Shown: positions 50,522 to 57,856, counted from the stretch's first letter. The stretch is DNA of 64,000 nucleotides from Polyangiaceae bacterium (GCA_947475525.1 CANJMI010000001.1:62001-126000), one strand, 5' to 3'. Made by a program: numbers and translations. Notes: a model not told the origin generated them from the letters alone.

Positions 50522-50911
50522 TCAGTTGGTGGATTTACGGAGGAGCACGCTGCGGCCGTCGCCGAGCTGCCAACGCAGGTGGCCGTCGTCTTCGATGCGA
50601 AAGTCAGCGGTCTCGCGCACGCCGTCCGAACGCAAAAAAGCGAGCGACAACGTGCCCTCGGTAACCTTCATCACTTCGAAGGTTCCTTCGCGGGGGGTCT
50701 CCGCCGGGATCGCAATGGACACGCGCGACCCCTCGAACTCGAACGAAGTACCGATGACCCAACCGGCCGCGCGCGTCGCTTGCGCGGGGGAGAAGTGCTC
50801 GACACGTTCGCCCACCCACTTGCCCTGAAGCTGGCGCTTCGGGCTCGTGCTGCACGCCAGCGTCGACGGAACGAGCGCGAGAGCGACCAGCCAGGCGAGA
50901 GGACGATGCAT
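50522..50911 (-). CDS. Small lipoprotein, uncharacterised
   Basis: A 129-residue protein with a lipoprotein signal (ALALVPSTLAC, Cys20). The body is beta-rich with a GKWVGERVEHF start and a final LRWQLGDGRSVLLRKS, compatible with a lipocalin-like or small barrel fold. No family recognised. Same strand as rarA. Confidence 0.75.
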   Translation of the reverse strand: MHRPLAWLVALALVPSTLACSTSPKRQLQGKWVGERVEHFSPAQATRAAGWVIGTSFEFEGSRVSIAIPAETPREGTFEVMKVTEGTLSLAFLRSDGVRETADFRIEDDGHLRWQLGDGRSVLLRKSTN

Positions 50912-51022: not shown

Positions 51023-51775
51023 GTGCAGTCGCGTTTTTTCCCATTGAGGTTGTCCGCAGGCGCTCGGCGAGAACTTCTCGAAGGCCTAGTCGCTCGCTCC
51101 GCCGAGCGGATTGGAGGGCGCGCGCCGCTTATCGTGTTCGATCTGGACGGCACGCTCCTCGACAACCGCCCGCGCGTCGTCGCCATCTTGCACGAGCTCG
51201 CTGACCACTGGCGAGACACGCATCCCGTCGCCTCGGCTGCCGTTGGTAAGGCCGAAAACAACGACATCCGTTACGGCCTCATCGACAACCTGAAACACCT
51301 CGGAGTCGTCGAGCCCGAGCTCCTCGCGGCAGGCCAGCGCTTCTGGTTCGAGCGCTTTTTCATCGACGATTACCTGCGCCACGACGTCGCGCTCGCGGGG
51401 GCCGTCTCGTTCGCCAACCGTTGCTACGACGCTGGCGCCAACCTGATGTACCTCACCGGCCGCGACACGCCGAAGATGTCCCTCGGTACCCTGGCGAGTC
51501 TTCGAGATTGTGGCTTCCCTATCGCCACGGTCGGCACGAGCCTGGTGACGAAACCCGCTTTTGACATTCCCGATGACCGCTTCAAGCGCGAGACCGGGGC
51601 GCTGCTCGAGCGGGTCGGTCCGGTGCTCGCGGTGTTCGACAACGAGCCGGGGAACTGCAATGCGCTCCTCGAGAGCCATCGCGCGTGCGTCTCCATCCTG
51701 CTCGATACCCACCACGCGCCGAACCCGCCCGAGCTCTTGTCGGGCATCGCGGTGATCGACACGTTCGAAACATGA
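51023..51775 (+). CDS. HAD-superfamily phosphatase
   Basis: A 250-residue HAD hydrolase: DLDGTLLDNR (Asp40/Asp42, motif I), motif II in YLTGRD, a motif III Lys later, and motif IV as VFDNEPGNCNA. The last, with FDNEPGN, is unusual compared with the normal DD or GDxxxD and suggests a distinct subfamily. A cap helix separates motifs I and II. The GTG at 51023 is the likely start. It is translationally coupled (ATGA) to a lipoprotein gene and heads a four-gene run with two propeller proteins. Substrate unknown. Confidence 0.88.
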   Translation: MQSRFFPLRLSAGARRELLEGLVARSAERIGGRAPLIVFDLDGTLLDNRPRVVAILHELADHWRDTHPVASAAVGKAENNDIRYGLIDNLKHLGVVEPELLAAGQRFWFERFFIDDYLRHDVALAGAVSFANRCYDAGANLMYLTGRDTPKMSLGTLASLRDCGFPIATVGTSLVTKPAFDIPDDRFKRETGALLERVGPVLAVFDNEPGNCNALLESHRACVSILLDTHHAPNPPELLSGIAVIDTFET

Positions 51776-53043
51776 AGCGACTCGCCGTGCTCGCCGTGCT
51801 CTTGGGCTGCGATCCTGCCGGCCAATCGGCGCTCCGGGCTCCGCCTTTGGAGGGGAGCGAGACTGCGGCTTCCAGCGTCGTTCCGCAGCCGAAATCGCTC
51901 GCGATCGCAGACGCCTCGTCGTCGGCCGGTGGGCGTGACCTCGGTACGCCACCCCCCGTGGTGTTGCCACCGGAGCCGCTCTCGTTAGGCGAGCCCGTCG
52001 CGCCTGAGCTCCCCGCTGCGGCCAAGGTCGAGCTCGCAGGGGTGGCGCTCGAAGCGCGCTGGAGCTGGCCTCGGCCGAGTGAGAACGCGGGAGACGAGCC
52101 CGCCCCGTCACGCGCACGCGTCGCGGCCGACCACGCGATCCAGCTCACGTCGAACGGTCGGATGCGTTTCGGGTTTCAGTCGGCGCGACTGACGCTACCC
52201 GCCGGGACCGAGTTGCTCGCGCGGGCCGACCGCTACGGCGCCTTGCTGGTGTGGCCCGATCGCGGCGAGTACCGTGTGCTCGTACCAGGAATGCTGCGTG
52301 CCACCCTCGGCGATCGGCGGCTCGACGCAAGCCCGCTCTCGAAAGGCAAGGCGACCGAGCGCGGCGTAGGTACCCGCATCGGACTCGCGGTGCGGCGGGT
52401 CGAGTTGACGAGCAGTTTCGGCATGGTGACCCTCGAGCTTGCGCGCGTTCGAGAAGCCGGCCTCGGTGGCGCGGTGCTCTGCCGGACCCTGGTAGAGTGG
52501 GCCGGCATCGATCCTTCGGTCAGCCTTTGCCTCGGCGAGGCGGAAGGCGAACTCCCCCTCAGCGCAAGCTATGTCTGGGGCTCGAACACCAAGGCCGAAT
52601 CGGTGCGCTTCGAGGTGACGAGCCTCGTGGTCCACGAGAAAGACGCGTCACCCGTGTACGTTCCCCCGGCGGAAGCGAAACCACGCAGCGCGGGCGTGCC
52701 CGGTCCGAGCTCGGCCGTGCTCGTCACCGAAGAGGAGCAAGGCGCCCTCGGCTTAGGAAAAGACAGCGTCCCCGCGCCAAAGGGCTCGCCCTTGCACGCG
52801 ACACTGAGCACCGTGAACTGGAGCGATCGGACGATGATCGCGGTGCTCGACGGCTCGCCCGTGGCCTACCTCGCGCCAAACGGACACGCCCGGCTCGACC
52901 ACCTCAGACCGACGCGACATCGCTTGCACTGGCGCTCCTTCTTCGGCGAGGAAACCTCCACTCCGGAGGACGTCGAACCGCCCGCAACATCTCGATATCC
53001 ATTGGAATTCATCGGAGACGACGAGGGCGCCCCACGCCCTTGA
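51772..53043 (+). CDS. Lipoprotein with C-terminal PEGA-like strands
   Basis: A 423-residue lipoprotein; the signal is very short (MKRLAVLAVLLGC, Cys13). Pro/Ser-rich linker to ~75, then beta-rich segments (GALLVWPDRGEYRVLVPGM; LELARVREAGLGGA). Near the end VLDGSPVAYLAPNGHARLDHL and HRLHWRSFFGEE look like a PEGA-type surface-binding module. Coupled to the HAD gene by ATGA and followed after 66 bases by the first propeller gene. Function unknown. Confidence 0.75.
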   Translation: MKRLAVLAVLLGCDPAGQSALRAPPLEGSETAASSVVPQPKSLAIADASSSAGGRDLGTPPPVVLPPEPLSLGEPVAPELPAAAKVELAGVALEARWSWPRPSENAGDEPAPSRARVAADHAIQLTSNGRMRFGFQSARLTLPAGTELLARADRYGALLVWPDRGEYRVLVPGMLRATLGDRRLDASPLSKGKATERGVGTRIGLAVRRVELTSSFGMVTLELARVREAGLGGAVLCRTLVEWAGIDPSVSLCLGEAEGELPLSASYVWGSNTKAESVRFEVTSLVVHEKDASPVYVPPAEAKPRSAGVPGPSSAVLVTEEEQGALGLGKDSVPAPKGSPLHATLSTVNWSDRTMIAVLDGSPVAYLAPNGHARLDHLRPTRHRLHWRSFFGEETSTPEDVEPPATSRYPLEFIGDDEGAPRP

Positions 53044-53109
53044 GCCGCAGGCGGCGACCGATGTTGAGGATGGACGCGTAAGGGGCTTCGTTCTACGACC
53101 CTCGGTGCT

Positions 53110-54579
53110 GTGTTTGACCGCGTAGACCGAGGGCCCCGGAGCCCGATTGCGGAAGCGATCGTCGGCGACACCCGTCGCTGCAACGTGTGCCTCCACCAAA
53201 TCCCGGCGCGCGCGAAGCTCTGCCCCGATTGCGGTGAGCCTACGGGCATGGTCTCGCTGCGACCCGCGCCCCCGCCTCTCACGGTGCGAGGCTGGCTCGC
53301 CGCCCACTGGCGCCCGGTCGTCACTTTCGGCGTTGTCGGCGGCTTGATCGGTTTTGGGTTGGCCCTCCGATTCCTCGCGCCCGAAGCGTATCGACCGATC
53401 CGCGCCGCCTCGACACCGGGCATCACGGTCGCGGAGCCGGCGTGCGACGTCCCGTGCTGGAACGGCGAGGCCTGCGAACTCGGAAAATGCGTGTTTCGCC
53501 CGGGAAATGACGTCGGGCACTTGCCGACGACGCCAACGGTGGCCGGCCCGTTCCCGCTGCCCGGAGACGTCGTCGACGTGCTGGCCCTCGACGCGGAGCG
53601 CTACCTCGTGTCGTACTTGGGCGGCGTCCAAGTGACGAACGCACGCAGCGGCGAGGTGCTGAGCCTCGTCAGCGATGCACCGCAAGCGCAACAGCTCTAC
53701 CGCGTCGGTAACCGTGTTTACGCGACGTCACCCGAGCGTATTTACGTGATCGACGCTGCGACGACCACGGTCGAAAAGTCGATCGAAGTCGGCCGTGCGG
53801 TTGGCGATCTTGCGGTCGGGGGGGCGGGCGCGACCGTGGTCGTCTCGCTACCCGCGGCCCATGCGCTCGCGGTGATCGCCACGGACTACCACGCCGAAGT
53901 GGCGCGCTTCACGTTCGGTGATGACCAAGTCGGCGCCGTCGCCGTCGACGACGCAGGCAAACGCGCCATGACGAGCAACGGCAACATCCCGCTTCCGGGG
54001 CTGAAACCGCACGCGAACGCGCTCCAACTCGGGGCGACCTACGCGCTCGATCCGAGCCGGCTGCCCTCCCAGCAAGACCGCGTGCGAACGGGGCTGGAAG
54101 GCAACCCCGTCGACGTCATGATGGGTCCGGATGCCGCGACGAGCTTCGTCGTGCTGCGCGAGCGCAATGAAGTCGTCCCGCTCGAATACCCACCGGAAGA
54201 GGCCGTGCGCGAACAGCCGCCGATCGCCACGTGCCTGCAACCCGAGCAGATCGAGCTTATCCGCGACGGTCGTCGGGCGATCGTCCGCTGCAACGCCGGG
54301 CATGCGGTGGACGTCATCGATCTCGCGCGCCGCGCGCCACTCAAGCGCATCGAGCTGAACGCCCGCGTGAGCGACCTCGTGGTGACGCCCGACGGACGCC
54401 AGGCGGTGCTCGTGCTGCCGCGCGGTGGGCAAGGCGCGGTCGGGTTGCTCGATTTGAAGACCTACGAGCTCACGCTGATCGAGCTCGGAGCGGAAGGCCA
54501 TCGCGTGCGCCTCTCGCCCGACGGCAAGACGGCCATCGTGATCTCGGACCGCAACAAGACGGCGTGGGCCCTGCGATGA
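53110..54579 (+). CDS. Zinc-ribbon / single-membrane-helix / beta-propeller protein, copy 1
   Basis: A 489-residue protein. N-terminal zinc ribbon C24-x2-C27 ... C38-x2-C41 (RCNVCLHQI, LCPDCGEP), then one membrane helix at ~66-88, a short Cys-rich stretch (CDVPCWNGEACELGKC), and from about 150 a chain of beta-propeller blades (for example VYVIDAATTTVEKSIEV; YVTN/WD-like RRAPLKRIELNARV). Positive charges before the helix suggest the ribbon is cytosolic and the propeller external. The GTG at 53110 was chosen. Its end overlaps the next gene by ATGA. Confidence 0.82.
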   Translation: MFDRVDRGPRSPIAEAIVGDTRRCNVCLHQIPARAKLCPDCGEPTGMVSLRPAPPPLTVRGWLAAHWRPVVTFGVVGGLIGFGLALRFLAPEAYRPIRAASTPGITVAEPACDVPCWNGEACELGKCVFRPGNDVGHLPTTPTVAGPFPLPGDVVDVLALDAERYLVSYLGGVQVTNARSGEVLSLVSDAPQAQQLYRVGNRVYATSPERIYVIDAATTTVEKSIEVGRAVGDLAVGGAGATVVVSLPAAHALAVIATDYHAEVARFTFGDDQVGAVAVDDAGKRAMTSNGNIPLPGLKPHANALQLGATYALDPSRLPSQQDRVRTGLEGNPVDVMMGPDAATSFVVLRERNEVVPLEYPPEEAVREQPPIATCLQPEQIELIRDGRRAIVRCNAGHAVDVIDLARRAPLKRIELNARVSDLVVTPDGRQAVLVLPRGGQGAVGLLDLKTYELTLIELGAEGHRVRLSPDGKTAIVISDRNKTAWALR

Positions 54580-55994
54580 CCGACTCGTCGCCGTCGTCGG
54601 ACGAAGAGCCGCGGATCCCGTGCCCCGCGTGCCGAGCCCCGATCATCGTGGGCGCGCGAAAATGCCCCACGTGCCGTAAATGGCTCGACATCGTGAACCC
54701 GATGTCAACCCGCCGCAGGTGGGCCATCGCCGCCGTCGCCGGGCTCCTCGCAACAGGCGCCGTGCTCGCCATCGCTCGCCGCGGTCCATCTCCCGTCGGC
54801 GACGCGCCGCCTCTCACGCGCATGGCACCCGCTGGCAGCGCCGATCCGGCCGCAAGCGCGGAGCCTTCACCGGGCGCGATCGGCCCGACGCCCGAAGCTA
54901 CGAGCGGCGCGAAAGACGCTTCTCGACCCGAGGCGCGGAGCTTCTGGACTCACACCATTCGCGTCGACGTTCACCCTCTTGATTCCGTCTTCAGCAACGA
55001 CGGCAACACCGTCTACGTCAGCGGCGACGACGCGAAGATCCGCGCCTACGACGTCGCCTCCGGCAAGTTGACGCACATTCTCCCGGTGCCCGCGCAGGGG
55101 AACCGCTTGAAATTGCTGCATGGTCGGTATCTCGCCGTCATTCAACGGCATGACGCGCCACACATCCCGCTGCTCGACGTGCAGACATGGGACCGCGAGT
55201 TCGTGCTGCTCAATGTCGGCTCCGATCCGGCGGACGTCGTGCCGATGCCCGATGGCAAGACGGTGCTTAGCGCCTCGAGCAAAGCTCGCAAAGTCGGCTG
55301 GTATGACGCCGCGACCGGACGATCGCTCGCGGAGCTCCGCCTGCCCCACGACACCGAGCGGCTGTTCCTGTTGCACAGTCACGGTCGCTCGTTCGTCGGC
55401 GCGCTTGGCAACTCGCGCCAAGGCGATGCCCCGACGACGGCCTCACTCGAGCTGTTCGATCCTACAGAGAAGCCCTTCGGCGCGACGAGGCGCAGCGTCT
55501 CGCTCGGCCGCGATCCTCGTGGCGGCGCCGTATCGCCGGACGGCAAAATGCTCCTCGTCGCCGACCCGCTGTCGAACAGCGCATGGCTCTTCGAGACCGA
55601 AGCGAGCCATCGGCCCGTGTCGATTCCGGTCGGCCAAGCGCCGATCGACGCGTTCATTCTCGACGGACGCAACGGGGTCACGCTCGACAGCAAAGCGCGC
55701 ACCGCGACGGTGATCGATCTCGAGACCGCGAAACGCAGCAACACGTTGATGCTCCCCGGCACGCCAGGAGCGGGCGCGGCGAGTCCCGATGGAAAATGGC
55801 TCGCGGTGTCGCTCGGCGGTACGAACTGGCCGCCGACGGGCTCGGGTGTCGTCATCATCGCCGGCACGCCGCCACACGTCGTCGCGCGCCGCGATACGGG
55901 CGAAGGCGCAGGCCGGATCGCGATCGCGGCCGATGGCTCGCGGGCCGTCGTGACGTGCTACGGCGCTCGCGAGGTCATGATCATCGAGCGCTGA
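54576..55994 (+). CDS. Zinc-ribbon / single-membrane-helix / beta-propeller protein, copy 2
   Basis: A 472-residue paralogue of the preceding protein: zinc ribbon C16-x2-C19 ... C30-x2-C33 (PCPACRAPI, KCPTCRKW), membrane helix ~49-67 preceded by TRRR, Ala/Pro/Ser linker, then blades (DGNTVYVSGDDAKIRAYDV; ASGKLTHILPV; SPDGKMLLVADP). The propeller is WD40/YVTN-like and probably forms a ligand-binding or scaffolding platform outside. Translated with copy 1 via ATGA. Its stop is only three bases from the convergent Gly/Ala-rich lipoprotein's stop. Confidence 0.84.
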   Translation: MTDSSPSSDEEPRIPCPACRAPIIVGARKCPTCRKWLDIVNPMSTRRRWAIAAVAGLLATGAVLAIARRGPSPVGDAPPLTRMAPAGSADPAASAEPSPGAIGPTPEATSGAKDASRPEARSFWTHTIRVDVHPLDSVFSNDGNTVYVSGDDAKIRAYDVASGKLTHILPVPAQGNRLKLLHGRYLAVIQRHDAPHIPLLDVQTWDREFVLLNVGSDPADVVPMPDGKTVLSASSKARKVGWYDAATGRSLAELRLPHDTERLFLLHSHGRSFVGALGNSRQGDAPTTASLELFDPTEKPFGATRRSVSLGRDPRGGAVSPDGKMLLVADPLSNSAWLFETEASHRPVSIPVGQAPIDAFILDGRNGVTLDSKARTATVIDLETAKRSNTLMLPGTPGAGAASPDGKWLAVSLGGTNWPPTGSGVVIIAGTPPHVVARRDTGEGAGRIAIAADGSRAVVTCYGAREVMIIER

Positions 55995-55997
55995 GCG

Positions 55998-56282
55998 TCA
56001 GGAGCCACCCGCGCCACCCGCGCCAGTCGCGCCAGTCGCGCCACCCGCGCCACCCGCGCCAGTCGCGCCACCCGCGCCACCCGCGCCACCCGCGCCAGTC
56101 GCGCTTCCCGTGTTTTCCATAACGCCGGAGGCTCCGGTGGTAGTCTCGGTTGAGTTGGCATCAGGACCAGTTGACCCCAACTCCTCGCCTGGCGTTTCGG
56201 GCTGTGGGTTGAAGCCACAGCCCGCATGCGCCGCGAGCAGGAGCAGACTGAAGCCAATGCGAACAAAAAGATTGGTGGTCAT
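55998..56282 (-). CDS. Small lipoprotein with Gly-Ala-rich repeats
   Basis: A 94-residue protein with a lipoprotein signal (LLLLAAHAGC) and a mature part that is first Pro/Thr/Glu-rich, then an array of tripeptides of the type Ala-Gly-Gly and Ala-Thr-Gly. It matches the 9-base DNA repeats at its 3' end. Likely a surface-exposed flexible tail or adhesive filler. ATG 56282 chosen because it begins the signal; a longer frame adds an unlikely leader. Confidence 0.62.
   Translation of the reverse strand: MTTNLFVRIGFSLLLLAAHAGCGFNPQPETPGEELGSTGPDANSTETTTGASGVMENTGSATGAGGAGGAGGATGAGGAGGATGATGAGGAGGS
56004..56102. repeat. 9-bp tandem repeats coding Ala-(Gly/Thr)-Gly
   Basis: Eleven 9-base units, GCCACCCGC or GCCAGTCGC on the plus strand, lie in frame in the lipoprotein gene. 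The two unit types are interspersed, which is typical of an expansion by slippage or unequal crossing-over. Confidence 0.92.
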
Positions 56283-56455
56283 GCGTCGGATCCCCAGGCA
56301 GAAGAGTTGCTCTCTCGCGACGAGTCGACCGTCCGACTCCGTGACGGCGACCGCCATCACGAGCGAGTACAGCACGAAGGATGCCACAGGTAAGCTATGG
56401 ATTGCACGTTCCGGTGCCCGCGTGACCCGGCACAGACTGGCACACGAGGGAGACC

Positions 56456-56515: not shown

Positions 56516-57856
56516 ATGGGTCTCGGCACGGTCCGTCGTACGGTGCTCGTCACGGGTGCAGCGGGGTTTCTCGGCTCCCACCTGTGTGATCGGCTGCTCG
56601 CCGAAGGCTTCGAGGTCGTCGGCCTCGACAACCTGATGACCGGCGATCTTATCAACCTCGACGCCGCCGGGCGCCACCCCCATTTCCACTTCGAGATCGG
56701 CGATGTGCGCGAGAAGCTGCCCGTCTACGCGGAGCTCGTCTTCAATTTCGCGTGCCCCGCGTCACCGATCCACTACCAACACGATCCGTACGCGACGCTC
56801 ACGACCAGCGTCCTCGGCGCGCAACGGCTGATCGAGATGGCGCGCGGGCGCAACTGCACGATCGTGCACGCCTCGACATCCGAGGTGTACGGCGATCCGC
56901 TCGTGCATCCGCAACCGGAGAGCTACTGGGGCAACGTAAACCCAATAGGCGAGCGCTCCTGTTACGACGAAGGCAAGCGCTGCGCAGAGACGCTGCTGCA
57001 CGATGCCTACCGCCGCTGGCGTGTCGACGCGCGCATCGTGCGCATCTTCAATACCTACGGGCCGCGGATGGCCTTCGACGACGGCCGCGTGGTGTCGAGT
57101 TTCATCACCCAAGCGCTGATGGGCCAACCGCTGACGGTGTTCGGCGACGGCGCGCAGAGCCGCTCGTTTTGCTACGTCGACGATCTGGTCGAAGGCCTGC
57201 TGCGGGTCGCAACCGTCAGCCCGTTCGAAGGGCCGGTCAACCTCGGCAACCCCGGCGAGCTCACGATCAAAGATCTCGCGACGCTCGTGCTCGAGCTGAC
57301 GGGTGCGACCACGCCGATCGCTTGGCGCGGTCTGCCCGTCGACGATCCGCGAAAGCGCAAACCCGACATCACGAAGGCTCGGCGGCTCTTGAAGTTCGAA
57401 CCGGAAGTCGACATTCGGGACGGGCTCGTTCGAACCATCACGAATTTTCGGGAGCGGCTTGCCGCGATGGCAAACCAGCGCCAGCGCGGGGTTCAGTTCG
57501 CCCCTGCCATCTCGCTCGACCGACAGCCCTTGCGCGACCTGGCCTCGGTGCTGCCCGAGTACGTCGAGCACGTCCGATCGTGCGGCGACGCCTACCGCAC
57601 AGGCGAGCGGATGACGGCGGCCGAACGGATGATCGTCGTCAGCGAGTCGTTAGGCAACCTGCACAACACGCTGGTGCTCGCGTTAAACGACGCACCGACG
57701 AACGCCGAGCTGCGCGCCGTCGATGACCAACTCTGCGCCCTTCTCGCCGAGCTAGGCCAAGCCCAAGCCGACCAAGATGGCGTGCGCATCGCCGATCTCC
57801 TCGAACACGAGACCTTGCCGCTGCTCGCGCGCTGCCGCGCCGAATGCCCTGCCTGA
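56516..57856 (+). CDS. UDP-glucuronate decarboxylase-like NAD-dependent epimerase with extra C-terminal domain
   Basis: A 446-residue protein whose first ~315 residues form an extended SDR sugar-nucleotide enzyme: GAAGFLGSHL (14-23), catalytic S-T-S-E (120-123, HASTSEVYG), and Tyr150/Lys154 (CYDEGKRC). The SFCYVDDLV and PRKRKPDITKA motifs are characteristic of UDP-glucuronate decarboxylases (UXS), which make UDP-xylose. The last ~125 residues are a helical domain (LPEYVEHVRSCGDAYRTGE...; NLHNTLVLALNDAP) not found in normal UXS. This suggests a fusion that may tie the enzyme to a partner. Converges on a glycosyltransferase gene. Confidence 0.86.
   Translation: MGLGTVRRTVLVTGAAGFLGSHLCDRLLAEGFEVVGLDNLMTGDLINLDAAGRHPHFHFEIGDVREKLPVYAELVFNFACPASPIHYQHDPYATLTTSVLGAQRLIEMARGRNCTIVHASTSEVYGDPLVHPQPESYWGNVNPIGERSCYDEGKRCAETLLHDAYRRWRVDARIVRIFNTYGPRMAFDDGRVVSSFITQALMGQPLTVFGDGAQSRSFCYVDDLVEGLLRVATVSPFEGPVNLGNPGELTIKDLATLVLELTGATTPIAWRGLPVDDPRKRKPDITKARRLLKFEPEVDIRDGLVRTITNFRERLAAMANQRQRGVQFAPAISLDRQPLRDLASVLPEYVEHVRSCGDAYRTGERMTAAERMIVVSESLGNLHNTLVLALNDAPTNAELRAVDDQLCALLAELGQAQADQDGVRIADLLEHETLPLLARCRAECPA

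Follow-up and report, generated by a model that had tools for sequence, protein, structure and literature searches.

Two adjacent genes of a Polyangiaceae bacterium, P1 and P2, encode proteins that, on balance and with little more than even confidence, we read as an obligate pair: single-pass inner-membrane proteins with cytosolic zinc ribbons and periplasmic eight-bladed propellers, acting as a heteromeric trans-envelope adaptor or receptor. For the Sorangium/Polyangium branch of the myxobacteria, whose members have large genomes and a complex social and predatory life, the pair gives a trans-envelope module that is compact, strictly paired and open to testing. To our knowledge, envelope signalling of myxobacteria is poorly known outside Myxococcus.

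The window, i.e. the whole stretch of 64,000 nucleotides that was analysed, belongs to a genome of 5.15 Mb. An earlier note had placed four genes in it, and their coordinates and strand are borne out by the open reading frames. HAD (51023-51775, plus strand, GTG start), encoding a HAD-superfamily phosphatase-like protein, precedes LP (51772-53043, plus strand), which encodes a predicted lipoprotein with a lipobox-like LLGC from a family without a characterised member. After a spacing of 66 nt, the conserved pair begins with P1 (53110-54579, plus strand, GTG start; 489 aa), in which a zinc ribbon, a TM helix, a four-cysteine segment and a propeller follow one another, and continues with P2 (54576-55994, plus strand; 472 aa), built from a zinc ribbon, a TM helix, a Pro/Ala-rich linker and a propeller. 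The ATGA overlaps that had been described at the HAD-LP and P1-P2 junctions are both present. On the opposite strand, a small predicted lipoprotein gene (50522-50911) diverges from HAD and, in those genera that have HAD-LP next to P1-P2, is kept together with RarA. Another (55998-56387) ends 3 nt from the P2 stop, and a 9/36-nt tandem repeat (56004-56104) encodes its tail. Further along, a UXS-like epimerase (56516-57856) carries a C-terminal extension of ~100 aa; downstream of P2 in another locus (L031:12519-12803), only a part matching this extension was found. A scan for sigma-70 promoters, which is uninformative in such a GC-rich phylum, found none.

Each of the four proteins was searched in 108 genomes of one family, taken as Polyangiaceae from the named relatives carrying P1 (Sorangium, Polyangium, Minicystis, a Byssovorax MAG and Polyangiaceae MAGs). 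P1 is present in 29 of the 108 genomes and P2 in 28, where it directly follows P1 in every case (28/28); in the 29th genome, the contig stops after P1. A 4-nt NTGA is common to the P1 stop and the P2 start in 27/30 pairs, so that of the two couplings proposed from the ATGA overlaps it is this one that is conserved. The 27 include two copies of a distant paralogous pair in genus g17 (Polyangium) that is 26-29% identical to window P1/P2, and since the coupled overlap is kept even there, P1-P2 was duplicated as a unit. Beside this distant pair, three tandem genes encode large, Cys-rich, lipoprotein-like repeat proteins (L036:209-7807, L037:1529-7992). The genes around P1-P2 differ between genera while the pair persists. 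Across 377 genomes of the phylum, a P1 profile finds matches in this family only (E <= 1e-12), and on a HAD-LP tree of 60 rows the P1-P2 genomes form essentially one clade with two non-bearers (3 changes). Because of this confinement to essentially one clade of one family, co-occurrence has little power for inferring partners.

The claim that HAD, LP, P1 and P2 make up one translationally coupled system with phosphatase input draws on a contiguous, same-strand block with two ATGA overlaps and on an order that is kept in the window genus and neighbouring genera, yet it is largely refuted by distribution and now appears hardly credible. Of the 29 P1 genomes, just 10 have LP close by on the upstream side of P1, all of them in genera g1, g12 and g117, and these genera also keep the flanking and unrelated RarA, small lipoprotein, UXS and GT genes to varying extent. 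Since these flanking genes are syntenic as well, the contact between HAD-LP and P1-P2 is ordinary local synteny. Even there, HAD is absent near LP-P1-P2 in g117. In the other genomes, the two pairs are on different contigs, differ in strand or are separated by 0.8-10 Mb, the distances having been computed for three complete genomes with both pairs on the same strand. Most of the family has HAD-LP without P1-P2. A failure of the four genes to be conserved together had been named beforehand as evidence against a single system, and this is in part what was found, as they stand together in three genera only. On the grounds of this distribution and distance, a four-gene functional unit was rejected: HAD-LP was brought next to P1-P2 in one sub-lineage, and the real unit is the P1-P2 pair. 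The apparent operon of four genes resolves into two independent pairs, and experimental attention shifts to P1-P2 and, separately, to HAD-LP.

HAD-LP is a separate, near family-wide conserved unit in which LP partners HAD, not P1-P2. LP occurs in 105/108 and HAD in 72/108 family genomes, and HAD directly precedes LP in 67 of the 72 genomes with both (959 nt apart in one, on another contig in four), i.e. in 67 of the 68 that have both on one contig; draft genomes in the set can hide neighbouring genes. Apart from the window and one sister, HAD and LP hardly ever overlap, and the gaps elsewhere are mostly 20-463 nt, these and the LP-P1 gaps being measured between aligned ends rather than annotated codons. 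As the overlap is not conserved, it was rejected as a sign of coupling. HAD matches Pfam Hydrolase over the cut-off (2e-8), with weak similarity to Acid_phosphat_B, and carries the catalytic motifs of the HAD superfamily intact, with D40xD42GT, T145, K188 and D206 invariant in 11/11 sequences; no signal peptide is evident. Class C, e(P4)-type HAD acid phosphatases have these motifs and a weak profile match in common with it, but the window protein scores far under the cut-off of the family model TIGR01533 (22.6 bits against 216), lacks a lipoprotein signal of its own and is cytosolic-looking, paired with a separate lipoprotein. LP has no match in Pfam, NCBIfam or PDB sequences. This near-universal pair of HAD and lipoprotein is a target in its own right for separate experiments.

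For P1 and P2, alignments and AlphaFold models agree with the earlier description: both combine a CxxC...CxxC ribbon with a single predicted helix and, towards the C-terminus, a propeller. The models, built on the homologue alignments (24 P1, 24 P2), have a mean pLDDT of 84.8 for P1 and 84.2 for P2 and show in each case one N-proximal helix and a confident propeller, the propellers mostly reaching >90. The P1 ribbon (residues 24-41, CNVC-x10-CPDC; 53179-53232, plus strand) and the P2 ribbon (residues 16-33, CPAC-x10-CPTC; 54621-54674, plus strand) keep their four cysteines, C24, C27, C38 and C41 in P1 and C16, C19, C30 and C33 in P2, invariant in 24/24 sequences each, a pattern from which zinc binding may be expected. 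In Pfam, zinc-ribbon and propeller matches in both proteins are weak and under threshold, with DZR below its cut-off. Behind the ribbons follow the predicted TM helices, at residues 67-89 in P1 (53308-53376, plus strand), where the AlphaFold helix is of modest hydropathy (KD max 1.88), and at residues 43-67 in P2 (54702-54776, plus strand).

The P1 propeller spans residues 144-488 (53539-54573, plus strand), with PDB matches to its model and an invariant C375 and C394, and that of P2 residues 122-472 (54939-55991, plus strand; pLDDT mostly >90). According to Foldseek and VIA-align, the P2 model matches the eight-bladed propellers of Rsa4, ODA16 (Z 33.9) and the eight-bladed design Tako8 (Z 30.4) at Z 30-35, and the P1 model matches eight-bladed propellers at Z 28-33; both propellers are thus modelled as eight-bladed and of WD40/YVTN type. 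An hhalign comparison (98.5%, 305 columns, 18% identity) shows the two to be homologous, and sequence profiles of P1 and P2 reach the archaeal YVTN S-layer propeller 1l0q at ~1e-18. Very many propellers match the models about equally, and structure searches do not settle function.

With regard to topology, the flanks of the P2 helix are positive-inside in 24/24 sequences, whereas the flank charges of the P1 helix are ambiguous and do not set its orientation. An outward propeller of P1 is instead deduced from its cysteine pattern and its homology with P2. Its juxtamembrane segment C112-x3-C116-x5-C122-x4-C127 (53443-53490, plus strand) is nearly invariant in P1 orthologues and is probably disulphide-bonded, and this segment and the invariant propeller cysteine pair are as expected for an oxidising compartment. 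As two distant P1 paralogues lack the four-cysteine segment, it is not essential to the architecture. For both proteins, we infer an N-terminus in the cytosol and a C-terminus in the periplasm. The proposal of a related, translationally coupled single-pass pair with cytosolic-type ribbons and external propellers holds up for P1-P2.

P1 orthologues of several genera, and the distant paralogues, have long N-termini; the start sites of these long orthologues are uncertain, and genes outside the window were called with a home-made program. GYF_2 (Pfam) was found in 9/9 of those scanned (best 2.5e-9), and one of them (L082) has two separate stretches matching it; when its GYF region was searched against PDB sequences, no match came up. 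By Pfam, GYF is absent from window P1 and P2, and only 14 in-frame codons lie upstream of the window P1 start. The modules are likewise absent in the rest of the window genus, in g17, g138 and g111 and in one g12 genome. On the P1 tree, the trait requires three changes, and since GYF is present in the outgroup paralogues, its loss is the more parsimonious reading. GYF domains typically bind proline-rich peptides. Their presence suggests a cytosolic docking role, which in the window copy would be retained by the zinc ribbon alone.

Taken as a working model, P1 and P2 would be co-translated, with the overlap coupling keeping the two chains balanced, and would most probably act together as a single heteromeric adaptor or receptor across the envelope. 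The paired propellers may bind a periplasmic or cell-wall protein or ligand, and the ribbons, together with the GYF modules where present, may dock a cytosolic partner. The pairing of the genes, the conservation of their overlap, the invariant cysteines and the predicted fold are shown. Heteromer formation, ligand binding and a signalling or tethering function are what we infer from this architecture; against it speak the modest hydrophobicity of the P1 helix and the lack of GYF in the window genus and several others. Periplasmic propellers often act as assembly scaffolds, the P1 model matches BamB (Z ~26-27) and the P1 profile matches TolB weakly, all of which would suit passive structural or housekeeping envelope proteins that serve, BamB/TolB-like in role, as a scaffold for outer-membrane or cell-wall assembly and have no signalling role. 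We consider this unlikely: the invariant cytosolic zinc ribbons and the ancestral GYF modules imply a cytosolic partner, and the clade-restricted distribution speaks against a general assembly role.

The neighbours of P1-P2 point to possible partners. In g17, g111, g13, g130 and g139, a gene for a DsbA-like oxidoreductase (Pfam Thioredoxin_4/DSBA) lies divergent and close upstream of P1, which is consistent with disulphide maturation of the periplasmic part of P1-P2. As an obligate partner, this gene is not supported, since no copy stands beside P1-P2 in g1, g12 and g117; its counts are blurred by a family-wide core paralogue. Among the 108 genomes searched, a short stand-alone IcmF-N gene (E <= 1e-91) occurs in 29/29 P1-P2 genomes and in one other, and DotU adjoins it in 12/12 loci read, including the window genome, where both are on another contig. 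In g17 and g111, the two genes directly adjoin the block of DsbA-like gene and P1-P2 on its upstream side, and in g138, g13 and g133 they are no more than ~16 kb from P1-P2. Examples of the DotU and short IcmF-N pair, which within the family is seen only in the P1-P2 clade plus one genome, are found at L122:9084-10774 (G000:C3) and L034:6330-8065; the IcmF-N protein has ~360 aa, a Walker-A-like GDPGTGRS and one C-terminal hydrophobic segment, and lacks a periplasmic domain.

Might stand-alone DotU and short IcmF-N, then, form the base of an envelope complex that resembles the T6SS/T4bSS membrane complex but lacks the periplasmic domain of IcmF, with P1-P2 as its periplasmic and adaptor part? 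The shared presence and the proximity in these five genera point that way, but the 29/29 co-occurrence was discounted as strong evidence: because the bearers are essentially one clade, it could reflect one event of shared origin and is only a lead. DotU and IcmF-N are, moreover, unlinked to P1-P2 in the window genus and its neighbours, and their neighbourhood also contains enolase, an unrelated housekeeping gene. On this evidence, such an assembly seems decidedly unlikely. Its fuller form is very unlikely: a previously undescribed Polyangiaceae trans-envelope complex of P1-P2, the DsbA-like protein and stand-alone DotU/short IcmF-N, in which the coupled propellers would stand in for the periplasmic portion of the IcmF/TssM of secretion systems.

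The earlier note knew of no described system with this set of genes, and none was found in the literature searched, which likewise yielded no published description or function of the P1-P2 pair (including searches on GltJ, GYF and zinc ribbons). Like P1-P2, the beta-propeller MoxR-vWA and zinc-ribbon GTPase conflict systems of multicellular bacteria have propellers and zinc ribbons along with membrane segments, but they are defined by a MoxR ATPase and a vWA protein, or by a DO-GTPase and GAP1 (PMC7159879). Among the neighbours of P1-P2 in the loci read, fewer than half of which were scanned against a domain library, neither MoxR AAA+/vWA nor DO-GTPase/GAP1 was recognised. The periplasmic or extracytoplasmic propellers 1l0q, Lp49, YncE, TolB and BamB have fold and sequence repeats in common with P1-P2, but are soluble or lipid-anchored, and none of them is shown here with a cytosolic zinc ribbon and TM helix or as a co-translated pair.

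A further comparison is with GltJ (AgmX) of the Myxococcus gliding machinery, which combines a zinc ribbon and a GYF domain in the cytosol with a single membrane helix and a TonB-like region in the periplasm. P1 and P2 likewise are myxobacterial proteins in which a predicted cytosolic ribbon with four invariant cysteines precedes one N-proximal TM helix and a periplasmic part. GltJ, however, is not known to carry a propeller or to come as two tandem paralogues, whereas window P1 and P2 lack GYF, and in their models the part after the helix is a propeller in place of a TonB-like region. P1-P2 is a lineage-restricted combination of known parts that is similar to GltJ in working principle, rather than a member of its family.
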